Shown here: positions 6,402-31,901 of the stretch, one piece after another
Layout of the letters: every line of letters begins with the position of its first letter
Numbering within the stretch: position 1 is the stretch's first letter
NCBI RefSeq assembly: GCF_000282595.1
Contig: NZ_AKIZ01000003.1
Coordinates: 1 to 64,000 of the forward strand
Length of the DNA stretch: 64,000 nucleotides
Source: Phyllobacterium sp. YR531
GTDB lineage: Bacteria > Pseudomonadota > Alphaproteobacteria > Rhizobiales > Rhizobiaceae
Direction of reading: 5' to 3'
The notes under the pieces: model-generated
The model's input: only the letters and a program-made list of their open reading frames with translations
Told to the model about the DNA's origin: nothing
Databases searched by the model: none
Position numbers and translations under genes: made by a program

Positions 6402-6457
6402 ACTTGTCCATTCAACATGATAATCGCTTGTGCCCTGTGGCTGTGTTACTGTTCGTC

Positions 6458-15585: not shown

Positions 15586-15587
15586 AC

Positions 15588-16586
15588 ATGCTCCGCTATA
15601 TTCTCTGGCGCATCGCCGCCATGATCCCGACCTTGCTCATCATATCAGCTTTGGTTTTTGTTATTATTGAGCTGCCGCCTGGCAATTTCATCGACAGCCA
15701 GATCGCGGAAATGCAGGCACAGGGTGAAACCGTAAACATACAGGACCTTGAGGAACTGCGCAGCCAGTATGGCTTGGATAAGCCGCCTGTACTGCGTTAC
15801 TTTTATTGGGTTGCCGGAATGCTTCAAGGCGATTTTGGCTATTCGTTCGAGTATCAGCTTCCGGTAAGTGAGGTTATAGGCGATCGCATGTGGCTGACAA
15901 TACTCGTATCGTTTGTCACTATTCTCTTCACTTGGCTGATCGCTTTTCCAATTGGAATGTACTCAGCCACGCATCAATATAGCTGGAGTGATTACGGCCT
16001 GACATTTCTGGGTCTGCTTGGTATCGCTGTTCCAAACTTCATGCTTGCGCTTATCCTCATGTATTTTGCCAATGTTTGGTTCGGTACATCCATAGGGCAC
16101 CTCATGGACCAGCAATATCTCAACGAGCCGATGAGCTGGGAAAAGGCGCGTTCTATCCTGTCGCATTTGTGGATACCCGTCATCATCGTTGGCACGGCAG
16201 GAACCGCGGGAATGATCCGTCGTCTGCGCGCCAATCTTCTCGACGAGTTGCAGAAGCAATACGTCATGACAGCAAGAGCAAAGGGGCTTCACCCGTTCAG
16301 GACACTGGTGAAATACCCTCTTCGCATGGCACTCAATTTTTTCGTGTCTGATATTGGTTCCATTCTTCCTGCCATCATTTCCGGTGCGGAAATTACGGCC
16401 ATTGTGTTGTCTCTTGAAACCACAGGCCCAATGCTCATAAAAGCACTTCAAAGCCAGGACATGTATCTGGCAGGTTCATTTCTGATGTTCCTAGCATTCC
16501 TGACTGTTATCGGAGTTTTGATCTCTGATATCGCTCTCGCATTCCTCGACCCACGTATCCGGCTTGCTGGCAGGAGCACCAAGTGA
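15588..16586 (+). CDS. ABC importer permease, DppB/OppB type
   Basis: Inner-membrane permease of 332 residues starting at the ATG at 15588, two bases after the binding-protein stop. Longer frames lie inside the previous gene. The N-terminal helix (LRYILWRIAAMIPTLLIIS) and a periplasmic loop with LRSQYGLDKPPVLRYFYW are typical of the DppB family. The EAA coupling motif appears in YVMTARAKGLHPFRTLVKYPLR. It overlaps the next permease by four bases. It pairs with the gene at 16583 to form the membrane channel of this importer. Confidence 0.93.
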   Translation: MLRYILWRIAAMIPTLLIISALVFVIIELPPGNFIDSQIAEMQAQGETVNIQDLEELRSQYGLDKPPVLRYFYWVAGMLQGDFGYSFEYQLPVSEVIGDRMWLTILVSFVTILFTWLIAFPIGMYSATHQYSWSDYGLTFLGLLGIAVPNFMLALILMYFANVWFGTSIGHLMDQQYLNEPMSWEKARSILSHLWIPVIIVGTAGTAGMIRRLRANLLDELQKQYVMTARAKGLHPFRTLVKYPLRMALNFFVSDIGSILPAIISGAEITAIVLSLETTGPMLIKALQSQDMYLAGSFLMFLAFLTVIGVLISDIALAFLDPRIRLAGRSTK

Positions 16587-17758
16587 CCGCGCAGATACCT
16601 CTCCCCGGCGCTCCGTTGCAGCACTTTGTCTCGACAGCGCCATTCGACCCGATGTCTGTCGAGGTAATGACCGAGGCACAGGCCAAGGTTCATCTCGCTT
16701 CACAACTCAAGCTGATGTGGTGGAAGTTCAAGCGGCACAGGATTGCCCTTGCTTCAGGTATTTTCCTGCTTTTGCTGTATGGCATGATCATAATTGCAGA
16801 GTTTCTGGCTCCTTATAATCTGCATACACGCAATGTTGATTTCATCCACTCACCACCTCAGCGCGTGCATCTATTCAATGATGGCAATTTCGTTGGGCCG
16901 TTCGTTTATGGCCGTGAGATGAAGTTGGACATGGAGTCGCTGAAGCGCGTCTACACAAACAATATGAATGACGTTCAACCGATCCGTTTTTTCTGCAGGG
17001 GGGACGATTATCGTTTTTGGGGACTTGTGCAGTCCAACGTCCATTTTGTATGTCCCGCAAAAGGTGGACAAATGTTTCTGCTGGGAACAGATCGCCTTGG
17101 GCGGGATGTATTATCGCGCATTATCTATGGAGCGCGCATTTCTCTGACCATCGGTTTGATCGGCATAACCATCAGCTTTGTTCTTGGCATCATCATTGGC
17201 GGGCTTGCCGGATACCACGGTGGCGTTTTTGACTTACTGGTTCAGCGTGTTATCGAAGTTTTACAATCCTTGCCTAGTTTGCCGCTTTGGATGGCACTCG
17301 CTGCCATCATGCCCGTGACTTGGAGCCCGATACTGATCTACTTTGGCATCACCATCATTTTAGGCATGCTCGATTGGACCGGTCTTGCCCGATCGGTCCG
17401 TTCCAAGCTGCTTGCCCTGCGTGAAGAAGATTACGTCTTGGCTGCACAGCTTATGGGAGCAAAAAGCAGCCGGATTATTGGAAGGCATCTCGTACCAGGC
17501 TTTATGTCGCACTTGATCGCAACAGCAACAATTTCAATTCCCGGTATGATCCTTGGCGAAACTGCTCTCAGCTTCCTCGGACTGGGCTTGAGACCACCAA
17601 TAACAAGCTGGGGCATACTGCTCACAGAGGCCAAGAGTGTAAGCGTCATTGCGTTTTATCCGTGGCTTCTCTTCCCGATGGTACCCGTCATTCTTGTCAT
17701 CCTGGCGTTCAATTTCTTGGGAGATGGGTTGCGCGACGCCGCCGATCCATACAGATAA
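16583..17758 (+). CDS. ABC importer permease, DppC/OppC type with large periplasmic insert
   Basis: A 391-residue permease starting with GTG at 16583, which overlaps the TGA of the previous gene. The N-terminal helix is at about residues 52-75. Roughly 90 residues of extracytoplasmic sequence follow, containing two cysteines (FFCRGDDYRFW and HFVCPAKGG). The DppC core then starts FLLGTDRLGRDVLSRIIYGAR. The EAA motif is in YVLAAQLMGAKSSRIIGRHLVPG. The enlarged periplasmic loop with YRFWGLV is known in YejE/AppC-like members. It completes the importer; the next gene begins 77 bases later. Confidence 0.93.
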   Translation: MTAQIPLPGAPLQHFVSTAPFDPMSVEVMTEAQAKVHLASQLKLMWWKFKRHRIALASGIFLLLLYGMIIIAEFLAPYNLHTRNVDFIHSPPQRVHLFNDGNFVGPFVYGREMKLDMESLKRVYTNNMNDVQPIRFFCRGDDYRFWGLVQSNVHFVCPAKGGQMFLLGTDRLGRDVLSRIIYGARISLTIGLIGITISFVLGIIIGGLAGYHGGVFDLLVQRVIEVLQSLPSLPLWMALAAIMPVTWSPILIYFGITIILGMLDWTGLARSVRSKLLALREEDYVLAAQLMGAKSSRIIGRHLVPGFMSHLIATATISIPGMILGETALSFLGLGLRPPITSWGILLTEAKSVSVIAFYPWLLFPMVPVILVILAFNFLGDGLRDAADPYR

Positions 17759-17835
17759 GAGGCTTGCAGGTTGCAAATAATCGCCTATTTGAGTTGTATT
17801 GCGCGGGCCTATCCGCAGAAAAGAAAGTTCCAACC

Positions 17836-19050
17836 ATGATGCGTCGTTTCGAGGATGCACGGATCCTGATGTATAGTCACGATACGTTCGGCCTGGGCCA
17901 TTTGCGGCGCTGCAGAACGATAGCGCATTCGCTTGTCGAGGATTATCGGGGATTGAACATCCTGATAATTTCAGGCGCTACTATCGCCGGAGCGTTTGAC
18001 TATCGTGCCCGTGTGGATTTCGTTAAGGTCCCGAGCGTCATCAAGCTGCGTAACGGAGAATACACGTCTCTTGCCCGCCATATCGACTTGCATGACACGT
18101 TGAAAATGCGCCAGTCGATCATCCGGCACACTGCAGAAACTTTCCAGCCAGATATTTTTATCGTCGACAAAGAACCTATGGGGCTCAAGGGAGAAGTCGA
18201 AGAGACGCTGACTTATCTCAAATCACGGGGCACTACACTTGTTCTGGGATTGCGAGAGGTTATGGATGCCCCACACCTCTTGGAGGCCGAGTGGAAGCAC
18301 AATCAAGTGATCAATAAGATCGACCAGTTATACGATACCGTATGGGTGTACGGTCCCCCGGATTTTTACGATCCATTGGTTGATTTGGAAGTTCCGGAAA
18401 CCATTCGGGATAAAATGAAGTTTGTGGGATTTCTGCAACGCAGCGTCTCTCATGAAACCACCTCTGCGCACGTGCCTGACGGCGATTACATATTGGTGAC
18501 AACAGGCGGTGGGGGCGATGGTGCGGATCTCGTCCATAATGTCATTCACGCTTATCAGCAAGATCCCTCGCTGCAGCATAAAGCGTTCATCGTACTTGGT
18601 CCTTACATGCCTGCCAAGCAGCGCGCAAAGCTTGTCAAGAAGGGCAGCAAGATTCCTTACATACAGGTAATCGAGTTCGATAACCGAATGGAGGAATTGA
18701 TCGCGGGGGCAAAGGCAGTGGTCGCCATGGGCGGATACAACACCTATTGCGAAATCTTGTCGTTTGATAAGCCTGCGTTGATAGTGCCCCGTATTGCTCC
18801 CCGCGAAGAACAGCTTATCCGTGCCAAGCGCGCTGCTGAACTTGGCTTGATTGAAATGCTTCTGCCGGAAGAAGCCGAAGATCCACTACGACTTGCAGAG
18901 GTACTTAAGCGCCTACCAGAACGTGCACCTCCCTCGCAAAGTGGCAAGGGTGAAGGTATGCGGCTTGAAGGACTTGTGCACATCTCTGAAATAGTCGGAG
19001 AGTGGCTGGAAGACCGGGAAAATCAGCCACTTCCTGCCGTGGCTGAGTAA
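17836..19050 (+). CDS. MurG/GT28-like glycosyltransferase (COG4671 type), first of three clustered
   Basis: A 404-residue predicted glycosyltransferase of the group related to MurG. The N-terminal acceptor domain starts ILMYSHDTFGLGHLRRCRTIA. The C-terminal nucleotide-sugar domain has LVTTGGGGDGADLVHNVI, FDNRMEELIAGAKAVVAMGG and the donor-binding segment GGYNTYCEILSFDKPALIVPR. I start it at the ATG at 17836 (an ATG at 17839 is equally possible), well after the permease stop. There are no membrane helices, so it probably works at the inner membrane face. It is followed by two further glycosyltransferase genes and the pseudo-ABC gene on the same strand. The sugar is unknown. Confidence 0.82.
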   Translation: MMRRFEDARILMYSHDTFGLGHLRRCRTIAHSLVEDYRGLNILIISGATIAGAFDYRARVDFVKVPSVIKLRNGEYTSLARHIDLHDTLKMRQSIIRHTAETFQPDIFIVDKEPMGLKGEVEETLTYLKSRGTTLVLGLREVMDAPHLLEAEWKHNQVINKIDQLYDTVWVYGPPDFYDPLVDLEVPETIRDKMKFVGFLQRSVSHETTSAHVPDGDYILVTTGGGGDGADLVHNVIHAYQQDPSLQHKAFIVLGPYMPAKQRAKLVKKGSKIPYIQVIEFDNRMEELIAGAKAVVAMGGYNTYCEILSFDKPALIVPRIAPREEQLIRAKRAAELGLIEMLLPEEAEDPLRLAEVLKRLPERAPPSQSGKGEGMRLEGLVHISEIVGEWLEDRENQPLPAVAE

Positions 19051-19061
19051 GAGAACGCATT

Positions 19062-20306
19062 TTGTCTTTACGCCGTAAAACACTTGTTGTTCTGAAGGGC
19101 TACCCACGTCTTTCGGAAACGTTTATCGCGCAGGAATTACTTGGGCTGGAGCAGGCAGGCTTTGACCTCACCCTCATTTCCATGCGCAGGCCCACGGACA
19201 AGAAACGCCATCCCATTCACGATGAGATCAAAGCGCGTGTCGTTTATTTACCGGAGTATCTTCACGAAGAACCGCTACGTGTCCTACGCGGACTGATTGG
19301 CAGTTGGAAGCGTCCGGGATTTCGACCATTGCTTCGCCAATTCTGGTCCGACTTTTTGCGTGATAGAAGCCGCAATCGTTTTCGCCGGTTCGGACAAGCA
19401 TTGGTATTAGCACATGAATGGCCCGATGCAGGCGAGTGGTTGCATGCGCATTTCATTCACACACCCGCATCCGTCACGGCCTATACGAGCATTTTGACGG
19501 GGATTCCGTGGACCTGTTCCGCCCATGCGAAAGATATCTGGACCTCCCCTGATTGGGAACTGACAGAAAAGCTTGGCAAGGCACGATGGAGCGTTACCTG
19601 CACTCGCTCGGGTTTCGAACATATGCGTGGGCTTACCGAGCGAAAAGAGGAAGTTCATCTGAGTTATCACGGCCTTGATCTGGCTCGGTTTGGACATTTC
19701 GACCAACCGCGGTCGGACCGCAACGGTGCTGTCAAGTCCGATCCTGTGCAGCTGTTAAGTGTCGGGCGGGCTGTTCCAAAAAAAGGCTATGATGTCCTCC
19801 TAAAGGCTCTAGCGCAGCTATCGACTGATCTCAACTGGCGGTTCACCCATATCGGCGGTGGCGATGAGTTGAGCAAGCTTAAACCTCTTGCAGAAACGTT
19901 GGGCATATCTGATCGCATTCTCTGGAAAGGCGCACTAGCTCAAGAAGATGTCCTTACGCATTATAGGCAATCGGATATTTTTGCCCTGGCGTGCCGGGTT
20001 GCTGAGGATGGCGACCGCGACGGATTACCCAATGTGCTGGTAGAAGCATCCAGTCAAAACCTCCTTTGCGTATCAACGAATATCTCAGGAATTCCAGAAT
20101 TGCTGACTGGAGGAGAGAATGGTCTGGTCGTACCACCGGAGGACCCTCGTCTTTTGGCCATCGCCATTGAACGGGCTATTCGTGAGCCGGACCTGAGGCA
20201 TCGTCTTGGTCTGGCTGCTGAGCGCAGGGTTCGTGAACATTTTGATCACAATTCCAGCATCCGGCAACTCACTCGATTATTTGAGGATGAGTGGCAAAAA
20301 TCATGA
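19062..20306 (+). CDS. GT4-family glycosyltransferase
   Basis: Retaining GT-B glycosyltransferase of 414 residues. The N-terminal domain has YPRLSETFIAQELLGLEQAGFDL, a pattern common in exopolysaccharide and colanic-acid-type transferases. The C-terminal domain carries LLSVGRAVPKKGYDVLLKAL, HIGGGDEL, and DGLPNVLVEASSQ with its catalytic-type Glu. No ATG is available near the 5' end, so I accept the TTG at 19062, 11 bases after the previous stop. Its own stop overlaps the next gene as ATGA. The three consecutive transferases imply assembly of a short repeating glycan or glycolipid. Confidence 0.88.
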   Translation: MSLRRKTLVVLKGYPRLSETFIAQELLGLEQAGFDLTLISMRRPTDKKRHPIHDEIKARVVYLPEYLHEEPLRVLRGLIGSWKRPGFRPLLRQFWSDFLRDRSRNRFRRFGQALVLAHEWPDAGEWLHAHFIHTPASVTAYTSILTGIPWTCSAHAKDIWTSPDWELTEKLGKARWSVTCTRSGFEHMRGLTERKEEVHLSYHGLDLARFGHFDQPRSDRNGAVKSDPVQLLSVGRAVPKKGYDVLLKALAQLSTDLNWRFTHIGGGDELSKLKPLAETLGISDRILWKGALAQEDVLTHYRQSDIFALACRVAEDGDRDGLPNVLVEASSQNLLCVSTNISGIPELLTGGENGLVVPPEDPRLLAIAIERAIREPDLRHRLGLAAERRVREHFDHNSSIRQLTRLFEDEWQKS

Positions 20307-21433
20307 CATCACCGCGCGTATTCTTTTACGTACAGCACTTGCTTGGAATAGGTCATCTGGCAAGAGCCAGTCATATCGCGCGTGCTCTTGTGGATAATGG
20401 GTTCGACCTCACCATGGTCACGGGTGGTTCAAATGTGCCGGGCTTTCCTGGACATGGGATAAGAAAGATTGCGTTGCCCCCGTTACTGGCAGGCAATGCC
20501 GGATTTAGCGGTCTTGTGGACGGTAATTCACAACCCGCCAGCGAAGATTATCTTAACAATCGCCGCGAACTCCTACTCCATGCCTTTCACGAGGCTAAGC
20601 CCGATATCGTCATCATCGAAGCGTTTCCGTTCGGACGGCGGCAAATGCGATTTGAGCTTATGCCTCTGCTGGAGGCGATCAAATCCACGGTTCCAAAACC
20701 CATACTCGTAACTTCCGTCCGCGATATTTTGCAAGAGCGGGCAAAACCGGGCCGCGACGAAGAAACGGTTTCTCTTATCAAATCCCATTTCGACCATGTG
20801 CTGGTGCATGGCGACCCCAATTTTGTGGCCTTGCACGATACATTCCCGCTGGCAAAATCCATCACTGACAAGATTATCTATACCGGGCTTGTTGCTGGTT
20901 CCGTAGCGCAGCCCTCTCCCGACAAATTTGATATCGTAGTCTCCGCAGGCGGCGGCGCCGTAGGATTCGATCTCCTTCGTTCTGCGAGTGAATCCGCAAG
21001 ACAATCCAGCTTTCAAGGCACATGGTGCCTAATCACCGGGCCTAATCTACCGGAGGCAGACTTCGCAAGACTATACGCGGATTCGCCGGAGAACGTGACG
21101 ATTGTAAGGTTCCGTCAAGACTTTCCGGCTCTTCTCCAAAATGCCCGACTGTCAATTTCGCAGGCTGGCTATAATACGGTGTGCGATATGCTTCGTGCGC
21201 AATGCCGGTCCATACTCGTCCCTTTCACCGCAGGTGGCGAAACCGAGCAAAGTGTTCGTGCAACCCGCCTCGAAGCGCTTGGACTTGCAGTCGCGCTGCC
21301 TGAAAACGGCCTGACTGCTGCGATGCTCACAGGCGCAATTACCTCAGCCCTTGATTTGGCATCTCGCCCAGAACACAACCTGGACTTGAATGGCGCTCGA
21401 CAGACTGCGGCACTATTGGGGCAGATGCTCTAG
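20303..21433 (+). CDS. MurG/GT28-like glycosyltransferase, third of three clustered
   Basis: A 376-residue paralogue-like partner of the gene at 17836. The N-terminal VFFYVQHLLGIGHLARASHIA corresponds to HDTFGLGHLRRCRTIA there, and the C-terminal LSISQAGYNTVCDMLRAQCR corresponds to VAMGGYNTYCEILSFDKP. The start is the ATG at 20303 in an ATGA overlap with the GT4 stop; a GTG at 20291 is less likely. The donor-domain glycine-rich turn is VVSAGGGAVGFDLL. It probably adds another sugar in the same pathway. The two related transferases flanking a GT4 suggest that they act on alternating steps. Confidence 0.82.
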   Translation: MTSPRVFFYVQHLLGIGHLARASHIARALVDNGFDLTMVTGGSNVPGFPGHGIRKIALPPLLAGNAGFSGLVDGNSQPASEDYLNNRRELLLHAFHEAKPDIVIIEAFPFGRRQMRFELMPLLEAIKSTVPKPILVTSVRDILQERAKPGRDEETVSLIKSHFDHVLVHGDPNFVALHDTFPLAKSITDKIIYTGLVAGSVAQPSPDKFDIVVSAGGGAVGFDLLRSASESARQSSFQGTWCLITGPNLPEADFARLYADSPENVTIVRFRQDFPALLQNARLSISQAGYNTVCDMLRAQCRSILVPFTAGGETEQSVRATRLEALGLAVALPENGLTAAMLTGAITSALDLASRPEHNLDLNGARQTAALLGQML

Positions 21434-21589
21434 GTTTGATTTTCAAGAATACGCATCCATAGCACCATGTTATGTGGCATCATCGCATTTCATGATGTAA
21501 GTTCAGGTGATTCAACCAATAAGGTCCCTTCACCGCCTCACCTGTTTCACGATATAAATTACTGCTGACGTCACAGCCCACGGTTGTTC
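21434..21589. other. Short intergenic stretch before the pseudo-ABC gene
   Basis: 156 bases without a gene. I see no clear terminator or strong promoter. The following gene could be read from the same transcript as the glycosyltransferases or from its own weak promoter. Confidence 0.3.
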
Positions 21590-24304
21590 ATGGAAAAAAG
21601 TTTAACACGCTATATCTGGTCGAATACACGACTGCAGCAGATATGGATTCTGATTGTTGTAGCCGTTTCGATGGTCCCCTATTTCCTGTCGTTCGATCTG
21701 CCAAAGCAGATTGTCAACGGGCCCATACAAGGGACAGGTTTTGAATCTCCCGGCGCTACGCAAACTTTCATGCGCATCCGCTTCAATATTCCTTATATGG
21801 GTGAAGTCACATTCTTCAATGGACTGGAGCTGACCCGTTTTGAAATGCTCATGGCACTCAGCCTTGTGTTTCTGCTCCTGGTGATCATAAACGGCCTCTT
21901 CAAACTCTACATCAATACCTATAAGGGCCGCCTCGGCGAGCGTATGCTGCGCCGGATACGCTTCGAACTCATTGATCGTGTGCTCCGTTTTCCACCGTCC
22001 CAGTTCAAGCGGGTAAAATCGGCGGAAATCGCTACCATGATCAAGGATGAAGTCGAACCAATGGGTGGCTTCACAGGTGATGCGTTTGTGCAGCCCGCTT
22101 TGCTCGGCGGCCAGGCTCTGACAGCTCTGGTTTTCATCATCATGCAGAATTTCTGGCTGGGTATGATAGCTGCTGCAATTGTCGCCATACAAGGTGTCAT
22201 TATCCCACGCATGCGCAAGCGTTTGCTTGAGCTTGGAAGACAGCGCCAGTTGACAGCACGGGAACTCTCCGGCCGCGTAGGCGAGATTGTCGAGGGGATC
22301 GGTGCTATCCATGGCAATGATACATCAAACTATGAACGGGCCGACATAGCATCACGTCTCGGACTGATTTTTTCGATCCGTTACGACCTTTATCAATGGA
22401 AATTCCTGGTCAAGTTCATCAATAATTTCCTGGCGCAGGTCACTCCATTTCTGTTCTATTCGGTGGGTGGTGTTCTGGCGCTGCAGGGGAGGCTCGACAT
22501 CGGTCAGCTGGTAGCTGTGATCAACGCGTACAAGGATTTGCCCGGCCCGTTGAAAGAGCTGATCGATTGGGATCAGGCACGACAGGATGTGCAGGTAAAA
22601 TATGCGCAGGTCGTTGAGCAGTTCAATGTGGACCGCCTGGTTGATCCCAAGATTCAAGCCTTGGCACCTGCTGCAACAAACCGACTTGAGCATTCCTTGC
22701 ATGCAGTGAATCTGACAGTATCCGACGACAGTGGCGCGCCGCTGCTCAATCATATTTCGGTAGAAATCAAACCGTCTGAAACCGTCGCAATCATTGGCAA
22801 TAGTGGCAGCGGCGCGGAGGCACTTGCCGAAGCTTTTGCCCGATTGGTTTGGCCGGACCAAGGGCGTATTACCATTGACGGAGCAGACTTGCTCGAACTC
22901 CCGGAATCGGTAACAGGTCGCCGGATCGCTTATGCTGCGTCCGACACCTACTTCTTCCACGGAACATTGCGGGACAATCTTCTTTACGGACTTAAGCATG
23001 CTCCATTGACCAAGATTGAGTATGAGGGTGCGCAAGCGGTCAAGTATAAATGGAACCTGAATGAGGCACGCCGTGCGGGTAATCCGGAGCTAGATCTGAA
23101 CAGCGACTGGGTGGATTACACTTCTGCAGGCGTTACCGGCCCCGACGATCTTTTCAAAGTGGTTCGTCCTGTTCTTGATGCTGTGATGATTTCGCAGGAT
23201 ATTCAGGATATGGCGCTGCGGTCGTTGGTCAATACAGCCACCCACAGCGATCTTACTGACAGAATCGTCGAGCTTCGCGAAGCGCTTCGCAAAAGGCTGA
23301 AGAAAGAGGACCTCGATGACCTTGTGGTGCCGTTCAAGCTGAAAGAGTATAATCCGCAAGCGACTATTGGGGAGAATCTATTGTTCGGGACGATGAAACG
23401 CCCAATGATGACCAACAGAAAGCTGGCAGCTCATCCCTATTTCCGCTCAGTGCTAAGGGAGAATGACCTTTACATCGATTTGTATCTCATGGGTCTGGAA
23501 ATTGCATCGAATGCCGTTGAACTCTTCCAGGATTTGCCGCCGGATCATCCGTTTTTCCAGCAACTTACATTCATGACTGCGGATGATATTCCCGCTTACC
23601 AGATACTCCTGCAAAAATTGCAAGGTCGTGGCATCGAAGCTGCATCGCCGGAAGAGCGCTCCAACATCATCCGATTGAGCTTCTCATACATTGAACCGAG
23701 GCACCGTTTTGGTCTGTTGAACGATGAACTCATGGCCAAGATCGTGGACGCGCGAGCTCGTTTCCATCAGAATTTGCCCGACGACCTCAAGGGCGTTATC
23801 GAACGATACGATCCTAAAAAGTTTATTTCCTCAGCAACTTTGCTGGATAATGTGCTTTTTGGCAGAATTGGTTTTGCACAAGCGGATGGCTCGGACAAAC
23901 TCCGCGATATCATGCGGGACATCTTCAACAAGCTCGAACTCTTTGAAAGCGTCCTTTCTATCGGTCTTGATTTTGATGTGGGTTCAGGCGGCAAACGCCT
24001 TACCAATGTACAGCGGCAAAAACTGAATGTGGCAAGAGCTTTGCTCAAGCGATCTGACTATTTGATTTTCAACCGCCCTCTTCCCGCGCTTGACCAACGC
24101 GTTCAAGACAAGATCACGCATAACATCATGGAAAACCTTCACGAAGAAGGTCATTCCCCATCCATCATTTGGGTACTTTCAAACACTGGCCTCGCCAAAT
24201 TATTCGATCGAGTTGTAGTATTTGACAATGGGGCACTGGTGGAGGACGGAACACATGCTACTCTTCTGCAGAAAAACGGTGTATTTAAACAATTGGCTTC
24301 ATAA
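21590..24304 (+). CDS. ABC exporter-like protein with inactivated ATPase motifs and a large insertion
   Basis: A 904-residue membrane protein with exporter architecture: a transmembrane domain (about 1-345, helices near 15-35, 85-105, 165-200, 280-310) followed by an ABC fold. Every nucleotide-binding motif is degenerate. Walker A is GNSGSGAE (403-410, Lys replaced by Ala). The Q-loop Gln is Ser in YAASDTY. The signature is LTNVQRQ instead of LSGGQ (804-810). Walker B ends FNRP instead of a DE pair (827-830). The H-loop reads VLSNTGLA without His. Roughly 300 extra residues separate the Q-loop from the signature, with three related segments (GTLRDNLLYG, ATIGENLLFG, ATLLDNVLFG). The reading frame is intact, so this looks like a maintained non-ATPase rather than decay. 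The ATG at 21590 is preferred over the TTG at 21584. It is followed after 6 bases by a cNMP-binding protein. Confidence 0.85.
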   Translation: MEKSLTRYIWSNTRLQQIWILIVVAVSMVPYFLSFDLPKQIVNGPIQGTGFESPGATQTFMRIRFNIPYMGEVTFFNGLELTRFEMLMALSLVFLLLVIINGLFKLYINTYKGRLGERMLRRIRFELIDRVLRFPPSQFKRVKSAEIATMIKDEVEPMGGFTGDAFVQPALLGGQALTALVFIIMQNFWLGMIAAAIVAIQGVIIPRMRKRLLELGRQRQLTARELSGRVGEIVEGIGAIHGNDTSNYERADIASRLGLIFSIRYDLYQWKFLVKFINNFLAQVTPFLFYSVGGVLALQGRLDIGQLVAVINAYKDLPGPLKELIDWDQARQDVQVKYAQVVEQFNVDRLVDPKIQALAPAATNRLEHSLHAVNLTVSDDSGAPLLNHISVEIKPSETVAIIGNSGSGAEALAEAFARLVWPDQGRITIDGADLLELPESVTGRRIAYAASDTYFFHGTLRDNLLYGLKHAPLTKIEYEGAQAVKYKWNLNEARRAGNPELDLNSDWVDYTSAGVTGPDDLFKVVRPVLDAVMISQDIQDMALRSLVNTATHSDLTDRIVELREALRKRLKKEDLDDLVVPFKLKEYNPQATIGENLLFGTMKRPMMTNRKLAAHPYFRSVLRENDLYIDLYLMGLEIASNAVELFQDLPPDHPFFQQLTFMTADDIPAYQILLQKLQGRGIEAASPEERSNIIRLSFSYIEPRHRFGLLNDELMAKIVDARARFHQNLPDDLKGVIERYDPKKFISSATLLDNVLFGRIGFAQADGSDKLRDIMRDIFNKLELFESVLSIGLDFDVGSGGKRLTNVQRQKLNVARALLKRSDYLIFNRPLPALDQRVQDKITHNIMENLHEEGHSPSIIWVLSNTGLAKLFDRVVVFDNGALVEDGTHATLLQKNGVFKQLAS

Positions 24305-24310
24305 AATCCG

Positions 24311-24805
24311 ATGATGGCCACAGGGGATGCTACGCATATGCTGCTTAAAGACGAAGTGGAAATGTTGCGACGAGTGCCATTGTTTTCGGGAGTTGCTCCC
24401 GCAAAGCTGAAACTTCTCGCATTTACTTCGGAGCGCGTGAGCTATAAGTCCGGCCAGATATTGTTCAACCAAGGCGATCCCGCAGATGCGGCATACGTGA
24501 TCCTGTCCGGCGCGGCTGATATTCTTGCTGATAGCCCGAGCGGAGAAATAAAGGTCGCTGAGATCGAGCACGATTCAATTGTCGGTGAAATTGCTATTCT
24601 TTGCGATGTCTCCCGTACCGCTACGGTCAAGGCCAACTCACCGCTTGAAGCCCTGCGCATAAGCAAGGACCATTTTATCAAACTCTTGAGCGATTATCCC
24701 GAGATGACCATTGAAATCATGCGGGTTCTTGCGGATCGCCTGAGCCATACAACAACCGAGCTCAGTGAAGCGCGTAGCAAACAAAAGCAGCACGCGGCAA
24801 AATAA
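24311..24805 (+). CDS. Stand-alone cyclic-nucleotide-binding domain protein
   Basis: A 164-residue protein that is essentially one Crp/EPAC-type cNMP-binding domain (about 15-140) plus a helical tail ending in a Lys/Gln-rich stretch. The beta-roll start (LFSGVAPAKLKLLAF), the LFNQGDPADAAYVILSGAADI hinge and the phosphate-binding cassette GEIAILCDVSRTATVKA are clear. The cassette keeps the Glu and Arg that hold the ribose and phosphate. There is no helix-turn-helix, so it is not a transcription factor of the Crp type. It lies six bases after the pseudo-ABC gene and is almost certainly co-translated with it. A role as its ligand-responsive regulator is inferred from that position. Confidence 0.88.
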   Translation: MMATGDATHMLLKDEVEMLRRVPLFSGVAPAKLKLLAFTSERVSYKSGQILFNQGDPADAAYVILSGAADILADSPSGEIKVAEIEHDSIVGEIAILCDVSRTATVKANSPLEALRISKDHFIKLLSDYPEMTIEIMRVLADRLSHTTTELSEARSKQKQHAAK

Positions 24806-24814
24806 GAGAGAGCT

Positions 24815-26551
24815 TTAAAAGATTTTTATCTGACCTGTCGCAAGAGAAACAGAGAAGTTTCGCGACGGTAATCCAGCCATGTATGAAGCCATCATCCGGA
24901 AGATTGTCGCGAACATTTGCCTGGCCTCACTCCCTTCTACTCCTTCAGATGCATAGGCTTCGATCAGTCTGCGATACATCACCAATCTCTTTGTTGATAT
25001 CCAATCCAACGCCATCTCGCTACCCATGCGCAAGCGATACCAATCCCCAAGCAAATCAAGAACGGAGATGGTATCCATTCCCTCCAAGCCCATACTCGCC
25101 ATAGCGGAATGAGCCCGGTCCATTCTCAGTGTCTGAACAATATCATCCAAACTTATTGCTTTCTCAGATCGGGCCAACACAAGTAGATCGCCAAGTGTCA
25201 ACAGTTTGACTGCCTGCGCGAGTTTGGCAGGCCACTCCCTTTTCAGATAACGATGGATTACCAGCTGGTCCACATGAGCCGAAAGAAATTCTCCATAACT
25301 GGTAGCGTCCAGCATGGCCCCTACATTCTTCTTTGTAACGGCAATCTCGGTCCGATACTGCGTATTGATCCTGGTATCTATCGTAAGACCATCCAATGAT
25401 ATGGTCTCTACGTTAATTTCATTGTCTTCAATCGTTAAAATCTTGAAGGCAGGTGGAAAGGCAACAAGCGATGGGACGCCCACATTCGTCAAAGTTCCCT
25501 TGCTGTTCGTGATACTCGCTGTGTCATTGACATGGAGATGACCACTGAAATGTATGGAAGTGCCGGTATCAATCACTGCATCCGCTACTGCCAGCGAAGG
25601 GGTTCTCCTCGTCGAACTAGTTGCTCCAAGCAATGAATGTTCATCTTCATTCGTCCCATTCATCATATCGATCATTGGATAGTGGGAAAATGCCAAGAGC
25701 GTTTTACCCTCTAGCTTGGCTCTTTTCGCAACATCTTTCATCCATTGGAGAATGAAAGGCTTGTGTACAAGCATCGAGTTCCAGCCAGCATCGGTACTAT
25801 CAATGAATGCTGCAGGATCATTGTCTGAGAAGGCGCCTATGCGAGGTTCGAATACATTGGCATCAATCATCAACAACCAGAGATTTGGCAATGGTTCGAT
25901 CAGATAAGAAGCATCCATCAGCTCATACTGGTTGAGGCCGTCCGCCGACCGCACCTTATGGCGGCGGGAAGCGGGATCACTGCTGTTTCCAAATGGTGTT
26001 TCCCAATGTATGGCATCTGACGGCGCGAAGAATCCAAGATCAGGCATTGCTTGCAAGCCTTCGGGGTACCCTTGGCAGTACATTTTATCGCTGAAGACCA
26101 TTGCCTCAGCATCCTCGTCGACAAACTCGCTATCGCTGGCAACCGTGGTATAGGTGCCATTAGCGTTTAGGAACCGCTTTGCGTGATGGCGTCCGGCTAT
26201 ACCAAAGATGTCGTGATTTCCGATGGTTGCGATGAAGATCAGCCCATGATCTTTGCTATAACAACCGAGAATTTCTCTCAGCGCAGACAGTGTTCCTACT
26301 TGGCCATCATCCGAATAATCACCAAGTAAAATGACAAGTTTGATTCCACGGGTCACAACATCATCCAGAGCACCTCGCAATGCATGATAACTCTCGTTGA
26401 ACACGCGGGTAGACCGGATCGTGTCCGTCAGGCGCCGAGCGATCATCTTGCGGCCGTCTACTTCAATTCCCTCGAAGTCATAATCGCCATAAAGGTCGTG
26501 GAAATGTGCATCTGCTATAACGGCGATACGAGGAAACTTCGAAGAAGACAT
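24815..26551 (-). CDS. Calcineurin-like metallophosphoesterase with C-terminal extension
   Basis: A 578-residue phosphoesterase. The five metal-ligand blocks are all present: IADAHFH (D-x-H), LLGDYSDDG, IGNHD, AFSHYPM and FSGHLHVND. The catalytic domain takes about residues 1-385, and the remaining 190 residues are a helical region I do not recognise. There is no signal peptide, so it is probably cytoplasmic. Cyclic-nucleotide phosphodiesterases such as CpdA share this fold, and the surrounding cyclases make that a candidate activity, but the sequence alone does not show the substrate. It converges on the cNMP-binding gene. A 276-bp palindromic repeat begins 12 bases upstream of its start, so its promoter must lie in or beyond that element. 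Confidence 0.87.
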   Translation of the reverse strand: MSSSKFPRIAVIADAHFHDLYGDYDFEGIEVDGRKMIARRLTDTIRSTRVFNESYHALRGALDDVVTRGIKLVILLGDYSDDGQVGTLSALREILGCYSKDHGLIFIATIGNHDIFGIAGRHHAKRFLNANGTYTTVASDSEFVDEDAEAMVFSDKMYCQGYPEGLQAMPDLGFFAPSDAIHWETPFGNSSDPASRRHKVRSADGLNQYELMDASYLIEPLPNLWLLMIDANVFEPRIGAFSDNDPAAFIDSTDAGWNSMLVHKPFILQWMKDVAKRAKLEGKTLLAFSHYPMIDMMNGTNEDEHSLLGATSSTRRTPSLAVADAVIDTGTSIHFSGHLHVNDTASITNSKGTLTNVGVPSLVAFPPAFKILTIEDNEINVETISLDGLTIDTRINTQYRTEIAVTKKNVGAMLDATSYGEFLSAHVDQLVIHRYLKREWPAKLAQAVKLLTLGDLLVLARSEKAISLDDIVQTLRMDRAHSAMASMGLEGMDTISVLDLLGDWYRLRMGSEMALDWISTKRLVMYRRLIEAYASEGVEGSEARQMFATIFRMMASYMAGLPSRNFSVSLATGQIKIF

Positions 26552-27026: not shown

Positions 27027-27857
27027 ATGAACGACCAAGTATTTCGGGTGAAATTCTGGGGGACACGCGGCAGTGTTGCGGTTTCGGGACCAGAGTTCAT
27101 ACGGTATGGTGGAAATACCGCGTGCATCGAGGTTCAATGCGGAAAGCGGCGACTGATTTTTGATACCGGTTCTGGCGTACGCCAAGCCGGCGAGGCTTTG
27201 TCGCGCGAAGGTGTCGAGCAACTCGACATCATTTATACGCACTGCCATTACGACCATATCATTGGTCTTCCGTATTTCACGCCGCTTTACAACCCCATGA
27301 TGAGTGTTCGTCTTTGGTCGGGACATTTGGCTGGACAGATGACGACCGGTCAAATGGTGAAGCAGTTTATGCGTCCACCGTGGTTCCCGATAGAATCGGA
27401 TATTTGCCAAGCATGCCTGAACTTTCAGGATTTCCGTACAGGGGACGTACTTACCCCGTTTGAGAACGTCGTAATACGCACCGATAAGCTAAATCATCCC
27501 GGTGGCTGCGTCGGTTATAGAATCGAGTGGGCGGGCCGTGTCCTCGCGCTGATTTTTGACACCGAACATATCGCAGGCGAATTGGATCCTGCAGTTCTTG
27601 GCCTCATCAAGGATGCCGATCTGGTTGTCTATGATTGTACCTATACTGAAGACGAGATGCCGCGACGCTTTGGCTATGGTCACTCAACATGGCAACATGG
27701 GGTAAAATTGGCAGAAGCCGCCAAAATCGGCAAACTGGCATTGTTCCATCATGCCCCGTCGCGAACTGATGATGAGATTGACGAGTTCGAACGGCTTGCA
27801 AGGCTGCGCTTTGATGGAACATTCGCAGCCCGTGACTTTCAAGTCATAGACCTCTAG
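27027..27857 (+). CDS. MBL-fold metallo-hydrolase
   Basis: A 276-residue metallo-beta-lactamase-fold hydrolase of the Lactamase_B_2/PhnP-like group. The N terminus RVKFWGTRGSVAVSGPEFIRYGGNT is the family hallmark. The zinc ligands are HCHYDH (72-77), the His in LNHPGG, the Asp in LIFDTEH, and the late His pair in FHHAPSRTDDE. Members include cyclic phosphodiesterases and nucleases; the substrate here is unknown. The gene stands alone between two inverted 276-bp repeats. Its TAG stop (27855-27857) is formed by the CTAG terminus of the second copy, so the element defines the protein's C terminus. It converges on the deacetylase gene. Confidence 0.88.
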   Translation: MNDQVFRVKFWGTRGSVAVSGPEFIRYGGNTACIEVQCGKRRLIFDTGSGVRQAGEALSREGVEQLDIIYTHCHYDHIIGLPYFTPLYNPMMSVRLWSGHLAGQMTTGQMVKQFMRPPWFPIESDICQACLNFQDFRTGDVLTPFENVVIRTDKLNHPGGCVGYRIEWAGRVLALIFDTEHIAGELDPAVLGLIKDADLVVYDCTYTEDEMPRRFGYGHSTWQHGVKLAEAAKIGKLALFHHAPSRTDDEIDEFERLARLRFDGTFAARDFQVIDL

Positions 27858-28129
27858 AGCAAATTTTGTTTATATAGAGCCATTCTGTTTCGTGGATGAC
27901 GAGACAATCCACGCGGAAGGTAGCGAGGTCGATGTTTATCCATCGGACGATGCTGCCTGACAAAGTGGTTGGCCGTTAGCCAGAAACCCGAAGGGCCGGG
28001 TGAATTCGGGCCAAATCCTTCGGGTTTTATCATCGTCCGATGGACAAACATCGGCCTCGCCAAATCCCTCGACCTTGCCCGCGAATTCCATCCCACAGAA
28101 TGACCCTATATAAGCAAAACTTGCTCTAG
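27854..28129. repeat. 276-bp imperfect palindromic MITE-like element, copy 2 (inverted)
   Basis: Reverse-oriented partner of the element at 26564-26839. It begins CTAGAGCAAATTTTG and ends AAAACTTGCTCTAG, with the 13-base core AACCACTTTGTCA shared (as its complement here). Both ends overlap stop codons: TAG of the MBL gene on the plus strand at 27855-27857, and TAG of the deacetylase on the minus strand at 28126-28128. The long self-complementary structure may also act as a bidirectional terminator between these convergent genes. An 80-codon minus-strand frame inside it resembles the frame in copy 1 and is most likely a by-product of repeat similarity. Confidence 0.87.
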
Positions 28130-28878
28130 ATCAACTCGCGGGCGGATACCCAACGGCATCCTCCCGTATGAACGGTAATTTCGAAAAGTTTTTGCAGAAA
28201 AACCCAAGCCGCTTCATCATGTACAAGATGATGAGCAAGAATGCCGATAGTGCTGTCTTCTCCGCTAAACCGGTCACGCATCTCCCGCACAATATCAGCT
28301 ACCAAATCCCCGTAGTTTCGACAGCCTCGCGTGCCGTGCCAATCCATCAAGTCAACATGCGTGTTCACAACGGGGATATGACTGGTTTGGATTTCTTTTG
28401 GCGGTCCAAATACCGAAAGTGCTGCAAATCCCAGGCCGCGTAAATGAGGCAGCAACGAACCATCAATACGATTCCATGGCGGAACGAGTATCGGCAAAGC
28501 TCGTTGCGGGAATAATTTCTCTATGCAATTTCTCCCCTCCTCAAGCTCGGCAAGAACCGATTGTAGTGGTCGATGGGGTCCAAGTTCCTGCTTTTTCTCT
28601 CCGTTATGAGCATGATTTACATGTGACCAACCATGCACACCAATCGTGATTAGTTGCTCCGATTTCAGTCTGTCAGCCAATCCATCACCCGCCAGTGCGG
28701 GTATGACAGCCAGCAACGTCGGCACCCCATGTTCTTTACCAAGCTTTAGCAAGCGTTGCAGAGCTGTCGTTGGTTGAACGGCATCATCGTCACGCAGCCA
28801 GAATTGCACGCTCCGACTGACATTTATCCAACGCGAGAGTTCATCGCGCAGTGGTTGCCAAATGACATCTTCGGTCAT
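28126..28878 (-). CDS. Polysaccharide deacetylase-like protein (NodB fold)
   Basis: A 250-residue cytoplasmic-looking member of the carbohydrate esterase 4/NodB superfamily. Visible motifs are the Asp pair in FWLRDDDAVQP, the metal His motif in ITIGVHGWSHVNHA, and VPPWNRID, matching the usual PPxxR block. No signal peptide is present. The start is the ATG at 28878, in an ATGA overlap with the upstream glycosyltransferase stop, so the two form a bicistronic unit. Its stop codon is supplied by the palindromic repeat. N-deacetylation of a sugar intermediate made by the neighbouring transferase is a plausible role. Confidence 0.82.
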   Translation of the reverse strand: MTEDVIWQPLRDELSRWINVSRSVQFWLRDDDAVQPTTALQRLLKLGKEHGVPTLLAVIPALAGDGLADRLKSEQLITIGVHGWSHVNHAHNGEKKQELGPHRPLQSVLAELEEGRNCIEKLFPQRALPILVPPWNRIDGSLLPHLRGLGFAALSVFGPPKEIQTSHIPVVNTHVDLMDWHGTRGCRNYGDLVADIVREMRDRFSGEDSTIGILAHHLVHDEAAWVFLQKLFEITVHTGGCRWVSARELI

Positions 28879-29966
28879 TGATCTCGTCTCACATATTTTT
28901 CGAGCAGCCAAGCCAACCGCCGTGACGCTTGTTCAAGAGAACGTTCTGCAAAAACAAACTCCCTCGCAGCCTTGCCCATACCAAAGCGCCCCTCGCTGTT
29001 CGCGCATAATTGTTCTATTGCACGGCTGAAGGCAGACACGTCATTCACTGGTGTAAGAATTCCTGTAATACCATTCTTTACGACCTCCGGAACACCGGCC
29101 ACCTCCTGTGCTACGACGGGCAGCCCCGCCGCCTGCGCTTCAAGATAAGCAATTCCATATGCTTCACCAAATCCCGGCCAGATGTAGACACCAGAACCGT
29201 AAAGTATTTCCATAACTTCTTGTGATTGTTTTTGCCCCAACCATTCAATGCGATTGCCGATCTGGTCAAAACACGCCTGTACCTCAGCCTTGCTGGGGCC
29301 ATCTCCCACGATTCTCAGGGTCCAAGGTATGTGCTCCAACTGCGCCAATGAAGCTGCGAGCATCCGGTAGCTATCCAGTTTGTCACCCGGTCTCATCATT
29401 GCGACGGTAACAAATTGATTGGAATGAACCGGCGTCGGATCTGCCGAGAAGGCTGCAACATCAATAAACGGGGCCAATCTTCCCAAACGTTCATTGGATA
29501 CGATTTCTTGAAGACCAATTTCGTCCCGTTGCGTGAAGCAAATATTCAATGCGGCTTGTCGGAGACCCGCAACGACATATGATTGCTGCTCTTTCCACTC
29601 CCCGCCATCGCGGCTTTTGGAATAGGAGGCCTCAGCCGTAACATAAGGAAGTTCAAACATTGATGCCAAATCGGGGCCGAGCAGATCGGGGGCCTTGTAA
29701 TAAGTGTGATAGGTGAACCACAGATCAGGTTTTACGACGGTCTGCCATAATTTAGCTATGCGTGCACGTTCCCGTGCAGCACTATTATGAATCTCTTTTT
29801 GAACAGGCCCTTCTGGCGTTTTGGAAAAGCTTCTGAGCTCAGAGACCAGCTCGACTTTATGTCCCGCACTTTGCATCGCGCGGATCAACAGTCGCGCCAT
29901 CTCACGATCACCAGAGGGGACAGGATGGTTTGGCGATTTCAACGGGGCATAAAAAGCAATGTGCAT
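28875..29966 (-). CDS. GT4-family glycosyltransferase
   Basis: A 363-residue GT-B transferase. The start is the ATG at 29966, giving MHIAFYAPLKSPNHPVPSGDR, a typical first strand and acceptor loop; longer frames add unlikely sequence. The donor half carries RIVGDGPSKAEV, IEWLGQKQSQEVMEILYGSGVYIWPGFGEAYGIA and the E-x7-E catalytic block across GEAYGIAYLEAQAAGLPVV. It is translationally coupled to the deacetylase-like gene. The pairing suggests transfer of an N-acetylhexosamine followed by deacetylation, as in several glycoconjugate pathways, but the acceptor is unknown. Confidence 0.88.
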   Translation of the reverse strand: MHIAFYAPLKSPNHPVPSGDREMARLLIRAMQSAGHKVELVSELRSFSKTPEGPVQKEIHNSAARERARIAKLWQTVVKPDLWFTYHTYYKAPDLLGPDLASMFELPYVTAEASYSKSRDGGEWKEQQSYVVAGLRQAALNICFTQRDEIGLQEIVSNERLGRLAPFIDVAAFSADPTPVHSNQFVTVAMMRPGDKLDSYRMLAASLAQLEHIPWTLRIVGDGPSKAEVQACFDQIGNRIEWLGQKQSQEVMEILYGSGVYIWPGFGEAYGIAYLEAQAAGLPVVAQEVAGVPEVVKNGITGILTPVNDVSAFSRAIEQLCANSEGRFGMGKAAREFVFAERSLEQASRRLAWLLEKYVRRDQ

Positions 29967-30170
29967 CTGCGAAAGCGATATAGCCTGACAATAAAACGTA
30001 GACCACCATGCGGGAAGATTGGAAGCCGCACAATAGATTGTGCCCACTGGACCAGAGTCGCATCAACTTTAAAACAAATATCCATCAAGACTGGCTTCGT
30101 CTTGCCGTTTTTGCCCGGCAAGTGAGCACATTGTCCACTCGCCAAATCACAACCGCTCAACTAAGCTAAC

Positions 30171-31901
30171 ATGACAGAAATTTCTACGGATTTCATGACA
30201 GCTTTCGCCGCTAGTAAAGTCAGTTCCGAACGGTCATTGCGCAGACTACGCTTGATCTCAGGTTTGATCATGCTCGTTTTTGTCATGCTACATCTGGCTA
30301 ATCATTCACTCAATTTGATCTCGCTAAAGGCCGCGGAAGAGGGTCGTCATTGGTTTCTTGCCATTTGGAGAAACCCGGTCGGGACATTTCTTTTCTACGG
30401 CGCAGCAATTGTACATGTGACATTGATCATGAGAGCACTTTATGTGCGCCGAACACTGGTCATGCCCATGCGTGAGGCAAGCCAGATCATACTGGGATTG
30501 CTCATCCCCGTTTTACTGATTGAACATATAATTGGAACACGCATCCGATACGAAGTGGCGGGCCTGCACGATACATATGAGTTTGTCATTCGCAGCCTGT
30601 GGGTCGATTCTCCAGGTAGTGCTATCAGACAGACACTGGCATTGCTTGTAGTATGGGCTCATGGATGCATTGGAATACATTTCTGGTTGCGGTACCGTGA
30701 CTGGTACTCGCGGGCTGCTCCGTTCTTCCTTACATTGGCAATTTTGCTGCCGGTTCTCAGCCTTTTAGGTTTTGCCTATACGGGCCGTATTCTTGCAAGC
30801 GAACCGGTACAATCGAGTTATGGCAGCGGCTACTCTTCGGGGATTGCGCATGGAAGTACATTTGTTAGTAACGCGGCGCTGCAGCAGCTGATGATAATTA
30901 AACTCATGCTCTATGGCGTTTTTGCCACTAGTCTTTTGAGCGTCCTGACCTTGCGACTTGTTCGCAGTTGGCGTGAACGTTCCGACCAGATCGAAATTCG
31001 TTATCCGGAAGGTCAGCTTGTTCGTGTTCCGCGTGGGTTCAGCGTCCTTGAAGCGAGCCGGCTTGGTGGCGTTCCTCACTACGCCGTGTGCGGTGGCAAA
31101 GGCCGCTGCTCGACATGCCGCGTCCAAGTAGTAGAAGGGGGGGATACATTATTGAGGCCGGATGCAACCGAGCAAGCAACATTGAACCGTATCAACGCAG
31201 ATCCAGATGTTCGCCTTGCCTGTCAGCTTCGACCTTTGAATAGTATCAGCATAGTACCCTTGCTTGTGCCCACTGTGGAAAGCAATCTGCCCGCAAACAG
31301 CCAGCAAACTAATCCGGGCCGTGAGCAGGAAATTGTCATTCTCTTCTGCGATATACGCAATTTCACCACCCTGACCGAAGCCCAACTGCCTTATGACGTG
31401 GTGTTCCTGCTTAACAGATACTTTGCCATCGTAGGCCAGGCCGTTGAACGGGCGGGCGGCCGCTTGGACAAGTTTATTGGAGATGGTGCAATGGCCTTGT
31501 TTGGGCTGCAGGGGTCATCGGAAGATGCCAGCCGGCAAGCTCTCAAAGCATGCGCAACAATTGTTCGTGAAATAGACCGTTTAAGTCAAGAGCTTGCAAC
31601 TGATCTCGCCATGCCGCTGCGTGTCGCAATAGGTGTGCACTCCGGTCCGGCGATTGTCGGGGCAATGGGCTATGGCAACGTAAAGAGCCTCACCGCGATT
31701 GGAGACACTGTTAACGTTGCAAGCCGTCTGGAAACAATTGCGAAGGAACTTGATGTTGCGCTGGTCGTGTCGGAGCCAACCATAGTTAAAGCAGGATCTG
31801 ATACTACGTTGCTGGAAAGCCGGGAAATAACCGTGAGGGGGCGCGCCGAGCCGCTCAGGATTTATGTTGTTACTCAGGAAATGAGCGCTCACTTCACATG
31901 A
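30171..31901 (+). CDS. cyaC: CyaC-like redox-sensing membrane adenylate cyclase (haem anchor + 2Fe-2S + cyclase)
   Basis: A 576-residue three-part protein. Residues about 25-265 are six membrane helices resembling the dihaem anchor of succinate:quinone oxidoreductases, with His41, His45, His82, His119, His164 and His170 as candidate haem ligands. Residues about 273-365 are a ferredoxin domain with Cys307, Cys313, Cys316 and Cys351. Residues about 385-565 are a class III cyclase with Asp394, Lys434, Asp438, Thr508, Asn515 and Arg519, the full adenylate-type set. This is the architecture of Sinorhizobium meliloti CyaC, whose activity responds to quinone redox state. ATP cyclisation is therefore well supported; the link to respiration follows from the family. 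The next gene overlaps by ATGA. Confidence 0.92.
   Translation: MTEISTDFMTAFAASKVSSERSLRRLRLISGLIMLVFVMLHLANHSLNLISLKAAEEGRHWFLAIWRNPVGTFLFYGAAIVHVTLIMRALYVRRTLVMPMREASQIILGLLIPVLLIEHIIGTRIRYEVAGLHDTYEFVIRSLWVDSPGSAIRQTLALLVVWAHGCIGIHFWLRYRDWYSRAAPFFLTLAILLPVLSLLGFAYTGRILASEPVQSSYGSGYSSGIAHGSTFVSNAALQQLMIIKLMLYGVFATSLLSVLTLRLVRSWRERSDQIEIRYPEGQLVRVPRGFSVLEASRLGGVPHYAVCGGKGRCSTCRVQVVEGGDTLLRPDATEQATLNRINADPDVRLACQLRPLNSISIVPLLVPTVESNLPANSQQTNPGREQEIVILFCDIRNFTTLTEAQLPYDVVFLLNRYFAIVGQAVERAGGRLDKFIGDGAMALFGLQGSSEDASRQALKACATIVREIDRLSQELATDLAMPLRVAIGVHSGPAIVGAMGYGNVKSLTAIGDTVNVASRLETIAKELDVALVVSEPTIVKAGSDTTLLESREITVRGRAEPLRIYVVTQEMSAHFT

Follow-up and report, generated by a model that had tools for sequence, protein, structure and literature searches.

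In the window, a stretch of 64,000 nucleotides of Phyllobacterium sp. YR531 (RefSeq assembly GCF_000282595.1, contig NZ_AKIZ01000003.1, positions 1 to 64,000), we detected a gene for a degenerate type IV ATP-binding cassette (ABC) exporter-like protein of 904 amino acids (21590..24304; all features are on the + strand unless stated otherwise). Six bases past its stop codon begins a gene for a predicted stand-alone cyclic-nucleotide-binding (cNMP) protein of 164 amino acids (24311..24805). The two represent a conserved family in which pseudo-ABC exporters come with a cNMP-binding subunit of their own, and the observation is more interesting than an earlier note on this DNA had stated; the interpretation given there is partly supported. 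A literature search for the family found no description of it. We give an even chance to the explanation that the pseudo-ABC exporter is a membrane effector that works independently of ATP hydrolysis and is controlled by its cyclic-nucleotide sensor subunit.

The open reading frame (ORF) of the exporter-like protein starts at 21584 (TTG) or 21590 (ATG) and ends with the stop codon at 24302-24304. Relatives share a Met-Glu start at 21590, giving the intact 904-codon frame that the earlier note had described. Pfam detected ABC_membrane (7.7e-16) and then ABC_tran (7.5e-14), the ABC domain being split by a long insert. The AlphaFold2 (AF2) model has a mean predicted local distance difference test (pLDDT) of 84.6 and a predicted template modelling score (pTM) of 0.79, with residues 155-172 and 318-331, both in the transmembrane domain, below 50. 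The top Foldseek matches of the model are chains of P-glycoprotein, MsbA, TmrAB and TM287/288 (E about 1e-17, template modelling score by target at most 0.60), a predicted fold match with large differences. Domain order and predicted fold place the protein structurally among type IV ABC exporters, the outcome supported by both the hidden Markov model and the structure comparisons that the earlier note had proposed. The best NCBIfam match is MsbA (TIGR02203) with 193.9 bits against a curated equivalog cut-off of 602, and an identity as MsbA lipid A exporter was rejected for this reason. The family shares with MsbA, TmrAB and TM287/288 the transmembrane fold, the domain order and recognisable motif remnants in the nucleotide-binding domain (NBD). 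It differs from them in lacking a complete ATPase site in the members examined, in its triplicated Q-loop-to-signature region and in its linked cNMP subunit.

The window protein retains none of nine canonical ATPase positions, whereas each of the six exporters from its own genome that served as yardstick retains all nine. Its Walker A motif reads GNSGSGAEA (residues 403-411, 22796..22822), with Lys replaced by Ala and the following Ser/Thr by Glu, and the Q-loop Gln is replaced by Ser451 (22940..22942). The signature reads LTNVQ (residues 804-808, 23999..24013), in which GG is replaced and the final Gln retained, and Walker B reads LIFNR (residues 825-829, 24062..24076) with Asn-Arg for Asp-Glu. 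The H-loop His is replaced by Ser864 (24179..24181), beside Asn865. All the replacements listed in the earlier note are thus real, and the protein has lost the residues of a working ATPase at Walker A, Q-loop, LSGGQ signature, Walker B and H-loop alike.

Two sets of relatives were compared. The first, of 94 members, combines the window with 79 named and 14 diverse loci; the named relatives are the best 80 of 483 at a loose E-value, so that ordinary exporters may be among them, and L111, which has internal stops, was left out of protein counts. The second is a class sample of 120 loci (L155-L274) drawn from the matches of a class-wide genome search. None of the 94 members has Walker A Lys, Q-loop Gln or H-loop His at the aligned columns, and one has Walker B Glu; His stands one column past the H-loop position in two. 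Ala or Gly occupies the Walker A Lys position in 82 of the 94, and 53 members have lost all nine canonical residues, the maximum retained being four. In the class sample the Walker A position is Lys in 76 and Arg in 37 of 120 members, Walker B Asp is present in 17, H-loop His in 42, Q-loop Gln in 26 and signature GG in none. The best member has seven of the nine canonical residues, and Lys, Glu and signature GG occur together in no member of this sample. No complete ATPase site was found among the members examined (at most 4/9 in the 94-member set and 7/9 in the class sample). As judged from these alignments, ATPase loss appears to be stepwise, with different residues retained in different lineages, and the total loss in the window would be one extreme of a graded process. 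The full set of losses proposed earlier therefore stands for the window protein and does not extend to many distant members, where the Lys of Walker A, the Glu of Walker B or the His of the H-loop persists.

Two side observations concern these motifs. In the column of window residue 410, directly after the Walker A Lys, 97 of the 120 class-sample members (L155-L274) have Asp/Glu in place of Ser/Thr, though Lys itself is kept in 76; Walker B Asp is Asn or Ser in 87. The conserved Ser/Thr to Asp/Glu swap is unusual and could act by neutralising the Lys of the P-loop or by holding a metal differently. Signature GG is kept in nine Mesorhizobium/Paramesorhizobium members (L086, L087, L089, L091, L092, L101, L108, L124 and L132), even though these have lost Walker A Lys, Q-loop Gln and H-loop His.

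The family is maintained by selection. The reading frame is open across the match in 79 of the 80 named relatives, and the gene is present in 18 of 19 genomes of the genus. The ratio of nonsynonymous to synonymous substitution rates (dN/dS, Nei-Gojobori) among 13 sequences of the genus has a median of 0.045; it rests on 61 of 78 pairs, the other 17 having given no usable whole-gene value, and is approximate because synonymous sites are almost saturated (median distance 1.61). By region, dN/dS is 0.030 in the transmembrane domain, 0.057 in the insert and 0.045 and 0.040 in the two NBD halves; purifying selection acts on the insert and the degenerate NBD as well. In the class-sample alignment, conservation is strongest in the transmembrane domain (residues 1-345, 21590..22624), which holds most of the invariant residues, among them the polar Asn109, Lys275 and Asn278. 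A predicted beta-rich segment between transmembrane helices 1 and 2 (residues 47-82, 21728..21835; model secondary structure and alignment) is shorter or absent in distant members of the alignment. That the gene is a decaying pseudogene would fit two of the 18 same-genus copies (L039 and L040), which carry one frameshift each, either a sequencing error or a recent loss. This explanation is refuted for the family by the open frames, the dN/dS of about 0.05 and the near-invariant residues across the class sample, and we consider it barely credible. The pattern that the earlier note had named as a sign of recent decay, intact motifs in orthologues and frameshifts in the window, was not seen: the relatives examined have no complete motif set and the window frame is intact. 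A repurposed and maintained protein without a canonical ATPase site, as proposed there, agrees with these results.

We found the family in 132 of 385 Alphaproteobacteria genomes searched (own genome counted; one of them at just E = 9.7e-4). A draw of 398 genomes from the phylum gave 31 matches, own genome counted, and an origin outside the window's class was rejected since all 31 are of that class. No match was found in 48 genomes of another class, a search run without a control, whose empty result alone shows nothing. Two loci from metagenome-assembled genomes labelled Granulosicoccus (L125 and L127; label taken as given) carry the family gene. By these searches the family appears so far to occur almost only in the class of the window.

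The insert is a second hallmark of the family. The region between Q-loop and signature spans about 325 residues in the window protein and 34-39 in all six exporters of the same genome, and the expanded helical region comprises residues 470-794 (22997..23971; comparison with these exporters and AF2). The earlier note had reported an insert of about 300 residues with three (G/A)T-x3-N-x-L-(Y/F)-G segments. Insert and segments are real, with cores GTLRDNLLYG (residues 458-467, 22961..22990), ATIGENLLFG (591-600, 23360..23389) and ATLLDNVLFG (749-758, 23834..23863), but the first is the ordinary element that follows a Q-loop, the insert comprising two extra copies of the same region. Since profile comparison among the three repeats gave E = 2.5e-6, 3.5e-7 and 4.3e-14, their likeness is not due to chance. 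The central Asn residues (Asn463, Asn596 and Asn754) are present in 119, 120 and 120 of the 120 class-sample members, respectively. Folded alone by AF2, the insert reached a pLDDT of 89.8; a PDB search with this model gave no match at E<=0.001.

The cNMP protein matches PF00027 (1.4e-20) as its sole Pfam family, with 73.4 bits against a gathering threshold of 27.5, and its phosphate-binding cassette is intact (GEIAILCDVSRTATV, 24584..24628), which together place it in the family of cNMP-binding domains as the earlier note had recognized. No DNA-binding domain was detected in it by Pfam, and its PDB relatives include regulatory subunits of PKA, SthK and CRP-type regulators. The cassette is conserved among 123 partners, with Gly and Arg in 123/123, Glu in 115/123 and Asp in 8/123. 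PADLOC gave no match for the ABC protein and matched the cNMP protein to five Pycsar-type models (TIR effectors, PycTIR and a cyclase). An anti-phage system was rejected, given the lack of a PADLOC match for the ABC protein and of an effector domain by Pfam in the cNMP protein.

The cNMP protein is closely tied to the exporter-like protein. In a set of 128 loci, the partner lies directly 3' on the same strand in 115 and is fused to the C-terminus in eight (123/128), and in the class sample it is adjacent in 104 and fused in nine (113/120). The two sets overlap by 20 loci (L155-L174), and in their union of 228 the partner was detected in 218. The linkage, whose absence would have spoken against the earlier interpretation, is thus near-universal. 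Outside the 228, the short stretches L010-L028, some of which were re-fetched as longer loci, have a cNMP match in 19 of 19 (presence only, at any position). The ten loci without a partner are L034, L125, L130, L172, L219, L243, L253, L265, L266 and L269; the contig of L130 stops inside the gene, and L219, L243, L253, L265, L266 and L269 cover just 1.8-2.3 kb of 3' flank. The eight fused forms make up a single clade within the family (quick tree with long reference branches), which fits a linkage that predates the split of the family. Distances over 81 loci gave a partial correlation of 0.43 between cNMP and ABC proteins and of 0.10-0.11 between the cNMP protein and two glycosyltransferases of the cluster (pairs not independent).

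Two more side observations were made among the loci. In Agrobacterium vitis CG78 the pair occurs twice, as diverged copies (L076 and L131) that lie on different chromosomes and have a cNMP gene each. L172 (G341) encodes a protein of 863 amino acids on a very long branch that has the insert, no canonical residue and no cNMP partner, and is possibly a diverged paralogue.

Our best hypothesis is that a cyclic nucleotide, and not ATP, gates the protein; on the simplest reading, the sensor subunit would take over the role that ATP formerly had. The protein, probably a homodimer, would retain an exporter-type transmembrane domain, while its NBD, enlarged by the two added Q-loop-to-signature copies, would no longer hydrolyse ATP and would serve as a module for docking and conformational change. 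The dedicated cNMP subunit (a separate gene here, a C-terminal domain in other lineages) would dock on the former motor domain. The presumed ligand, a cyclic nucleotide made by clustered cyclases, would then shift the membrane part between states, the output being transport of a putative cargo, gating, or control of co-encoded glycoconjugate machinery.

Class III nucleotidyl cyclases are enriched near the pair. The window encodes one at 9346..10692 (PF00211 2.1e-7) and, at 30171..31901, a protein with a hydrophobic N-terminal part, 2Fe-2S (Fer2 3e-8) and class III cyclase (PF00211 3e-20) domains, possibly a redox-controlled cyclase judging from its domains. Such cyclases are present in 49 of the 128 loci. 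The flanks, 2.36 Mb in all, hold 67 of them (28.4/Mb, without double counts from overlaps), whereas the window's whole genome of 5.0 Mb has nine, including the two in this island. The enrichment is more than tenfold, a rough figure because the background is one genome counted with a different model. At L030 and L031 the cyclases are 10-12 kb off, outside the 10 kb of flank covered for named loci (L029 and L030 are one species).

Several points weigh against a protein controlled by cyclic nucleotide without ATP hydrolysis. No cyclase was found inside the fetched flanks of 79 of the 128 loci. Walker A Lys is retained in 76/120, Walker B Glu in 69/120 and both in 49/120 members of the class sample, and signature GG in 9/94 and both Mg2+ ligands in 4/94 members of the window's set; ATP binding may therefore persist in some lineages. 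One could then imagine a residual ATP sensor, in which nucleotide binds the modified P-loop (Lys then Asp/Glu) without hydrolysis and acts jointly with the cNMP subunit; the lineage of the window would be an extreme case. The frequent Lys with Glu/Asp next to it, the Walker B Glu and the His in the class sample agree with this view. The window's set does not, having no Lys and mostly Ala or Gly at its position, and both Mg2+ ligands occur in just 2/120 and 4/94 members, so we regard such a sensor as quite unlikely. The ABC protein also correlates more strongly with the GT4 glycosyltransferase of the cluster (partial r 0.60 over the same 81 loci, after mutual correction and with non-independent pairs) than with the cNMP protein, and the co-evolution of the pair is therefore not exclusive. 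Finally, cNMP-type folds may bind other ligands. According to PMC10986499, the cNMP-type domain of HetC, a peptidase-type ABC exporter of Nostoc, binds guanosine tetraphosphate (ppGpp), and the protection by cyclic AMP was not significant. HetC resembles the family as an exporter with a cNMP-type domain, N-terminal and essential there, and differs by its peptidase domain and essential working ATPase (PMC10986499). Membership in the HetC type was rejected, as Pfam detected no peptidase domain and the ATPase motifs are lost.

A live partner half may also be encoded elsewhere in the genome. The protein would then be the dead half of a heterodimeric exporter, an intact exporter hydrolysing ATP and the cNMP subunit regulating. 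Degenerate sites are common in heterodimeric exporters, the fold is that of type IV exporters with MsbA and the heterodimers TmrAB and TM287/288 among the top matches, and the genome has many other ABC genes, including the six exporters with all nine canonical residues. Yet a second exporter ORF was found in only six of the 128 loci, adjacent in one, and no linked one in 122, which speaks against a heterodimer while leaving room for an unlinked partner. The window protein has, moreover, lost every motif and not merely those of one composite site, and its enlarged helical region is without counterpart in the six exporters. A heterodimer seems improbable to us.

The neighbouring genes suggest another role. 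Three glycosyltransferase genes (GT28-like, GT4 and GT28-like, 17830..21433) recur in 83-87 of the 128 loci and genes of an Opp-type ABC importer (ATPase, binding protein and two permeases, 11777..17758) in 54-62, OppA-like in 62; these and the other neighbour counts rest on score thresholds that we chose. Instead of transporting, the membrane body could act as a scaffold or regulator that recruits the glycosyltransferases or controls the importer, with the cNMP subunit setting its assembly state. The large, conserved insert and the correlation of the ABC protein with GT4 are in keeping with this. However, neither glycosyltransferase nor importer genes are present in the fetched stretch of six of the eight fused loci (L032, L168, L169, L170, L173 and L174) or of the split pairs L076 and L103; the fused loci L033 and L048 have glycosyltransferases and L033 the importer too. 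As the pair occurs without the cluster genes, the pair and not the cluster is the constant unit. Conservation also peaks in the transmembrane domain, including Asn109, Lys275 and Asn278, and we think that a scaffold is unlikely.

Returning to control by the cNMP subunit, it is possible, though we hold this only tentatively, that an ATP switch was replaced in evolution by a cyclic-nucleotide switch. The outcome would be a protein of ABC fold that is either a cNMP-gated channel or facilitator or a transporter driven by protons. The cNMP sensor would have been gained and the helical subdomain triplicated before the ATPase residues were lost stepwise, nearly all of them in the lineage of the window. 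Movement driven by ATP is the defining trait of ABC proteins, and a family this widespread, with exporter body, stepwise ATPase loss and nucleotide-sensor subunit, would show a motor becoming a switch, in bacteria that are genetically tractable. The ABC/cNMP pair could also add a membrane target to cyclic-nucleotide signalling, in which transcription factors are the receptors most prevalent in bacteria, according to PMC10127613.

Parts of this arrangement are known from other systems. Like the family, CFTR and SUR reuse the ABC exporter body, as channel or channel regulator; unlike it, they still bind ATP and have at least one functional site. SthK-type cyclic-nucleotide-gated channels share the cNMP domain by sequence match, which controls a membrane protein there, and their membrane domain is unrelated to that of ABC exporters. 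BacA/SbmA are related peptide transporters able to work without ATP, as stated in PMC12003926. In the comparison there with BclA they are without any ATPase domain, whereas the family here retains and enlarges the domain and pairs it with a sensor.

The remaining features of the window are minor. The window belongs to a contig of 205 kb. An S-element was detected near 33-35 kb with a gene that we take to be repC-like. A metallo-beta-lactamase-fold hydrolase (27027..27857; in 51 of 128 loci at >=100 bits) has a weak NCBIfam match, below the cut-off, to cyclic-nucleotide phosphodiesterase and a stronger one to RNase Z. A metallophosphoesterase (24815..26551, - strand; PF00149 3.4e-8) is an occasional neighbour (18/128 loci), and polysaccharide deacetylase-like and GT4 genes (28126..30047, - strand) are found in 65 and 66 loci. 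In Sinorhizobium meliloti the cluster is located on pSymB. There, smb20804 and smb20805, linked to it by neighbouring locus numbers only, were reported to affect capsular polysaccharide (PMC5539429). SMb20813 is called the msbA homologue of S. meliloti in PMC10945364; that it belongs to the family is a guess, the tag being absent from the fetched pSymB records. A DUF3095 protein (6404-7612) shares the island with the two cyclases. At 48143-48428 we found an Rfam match to 5_ureB_sRNA (89.5 bits), which may merely reflect conserved urease coding sequence.

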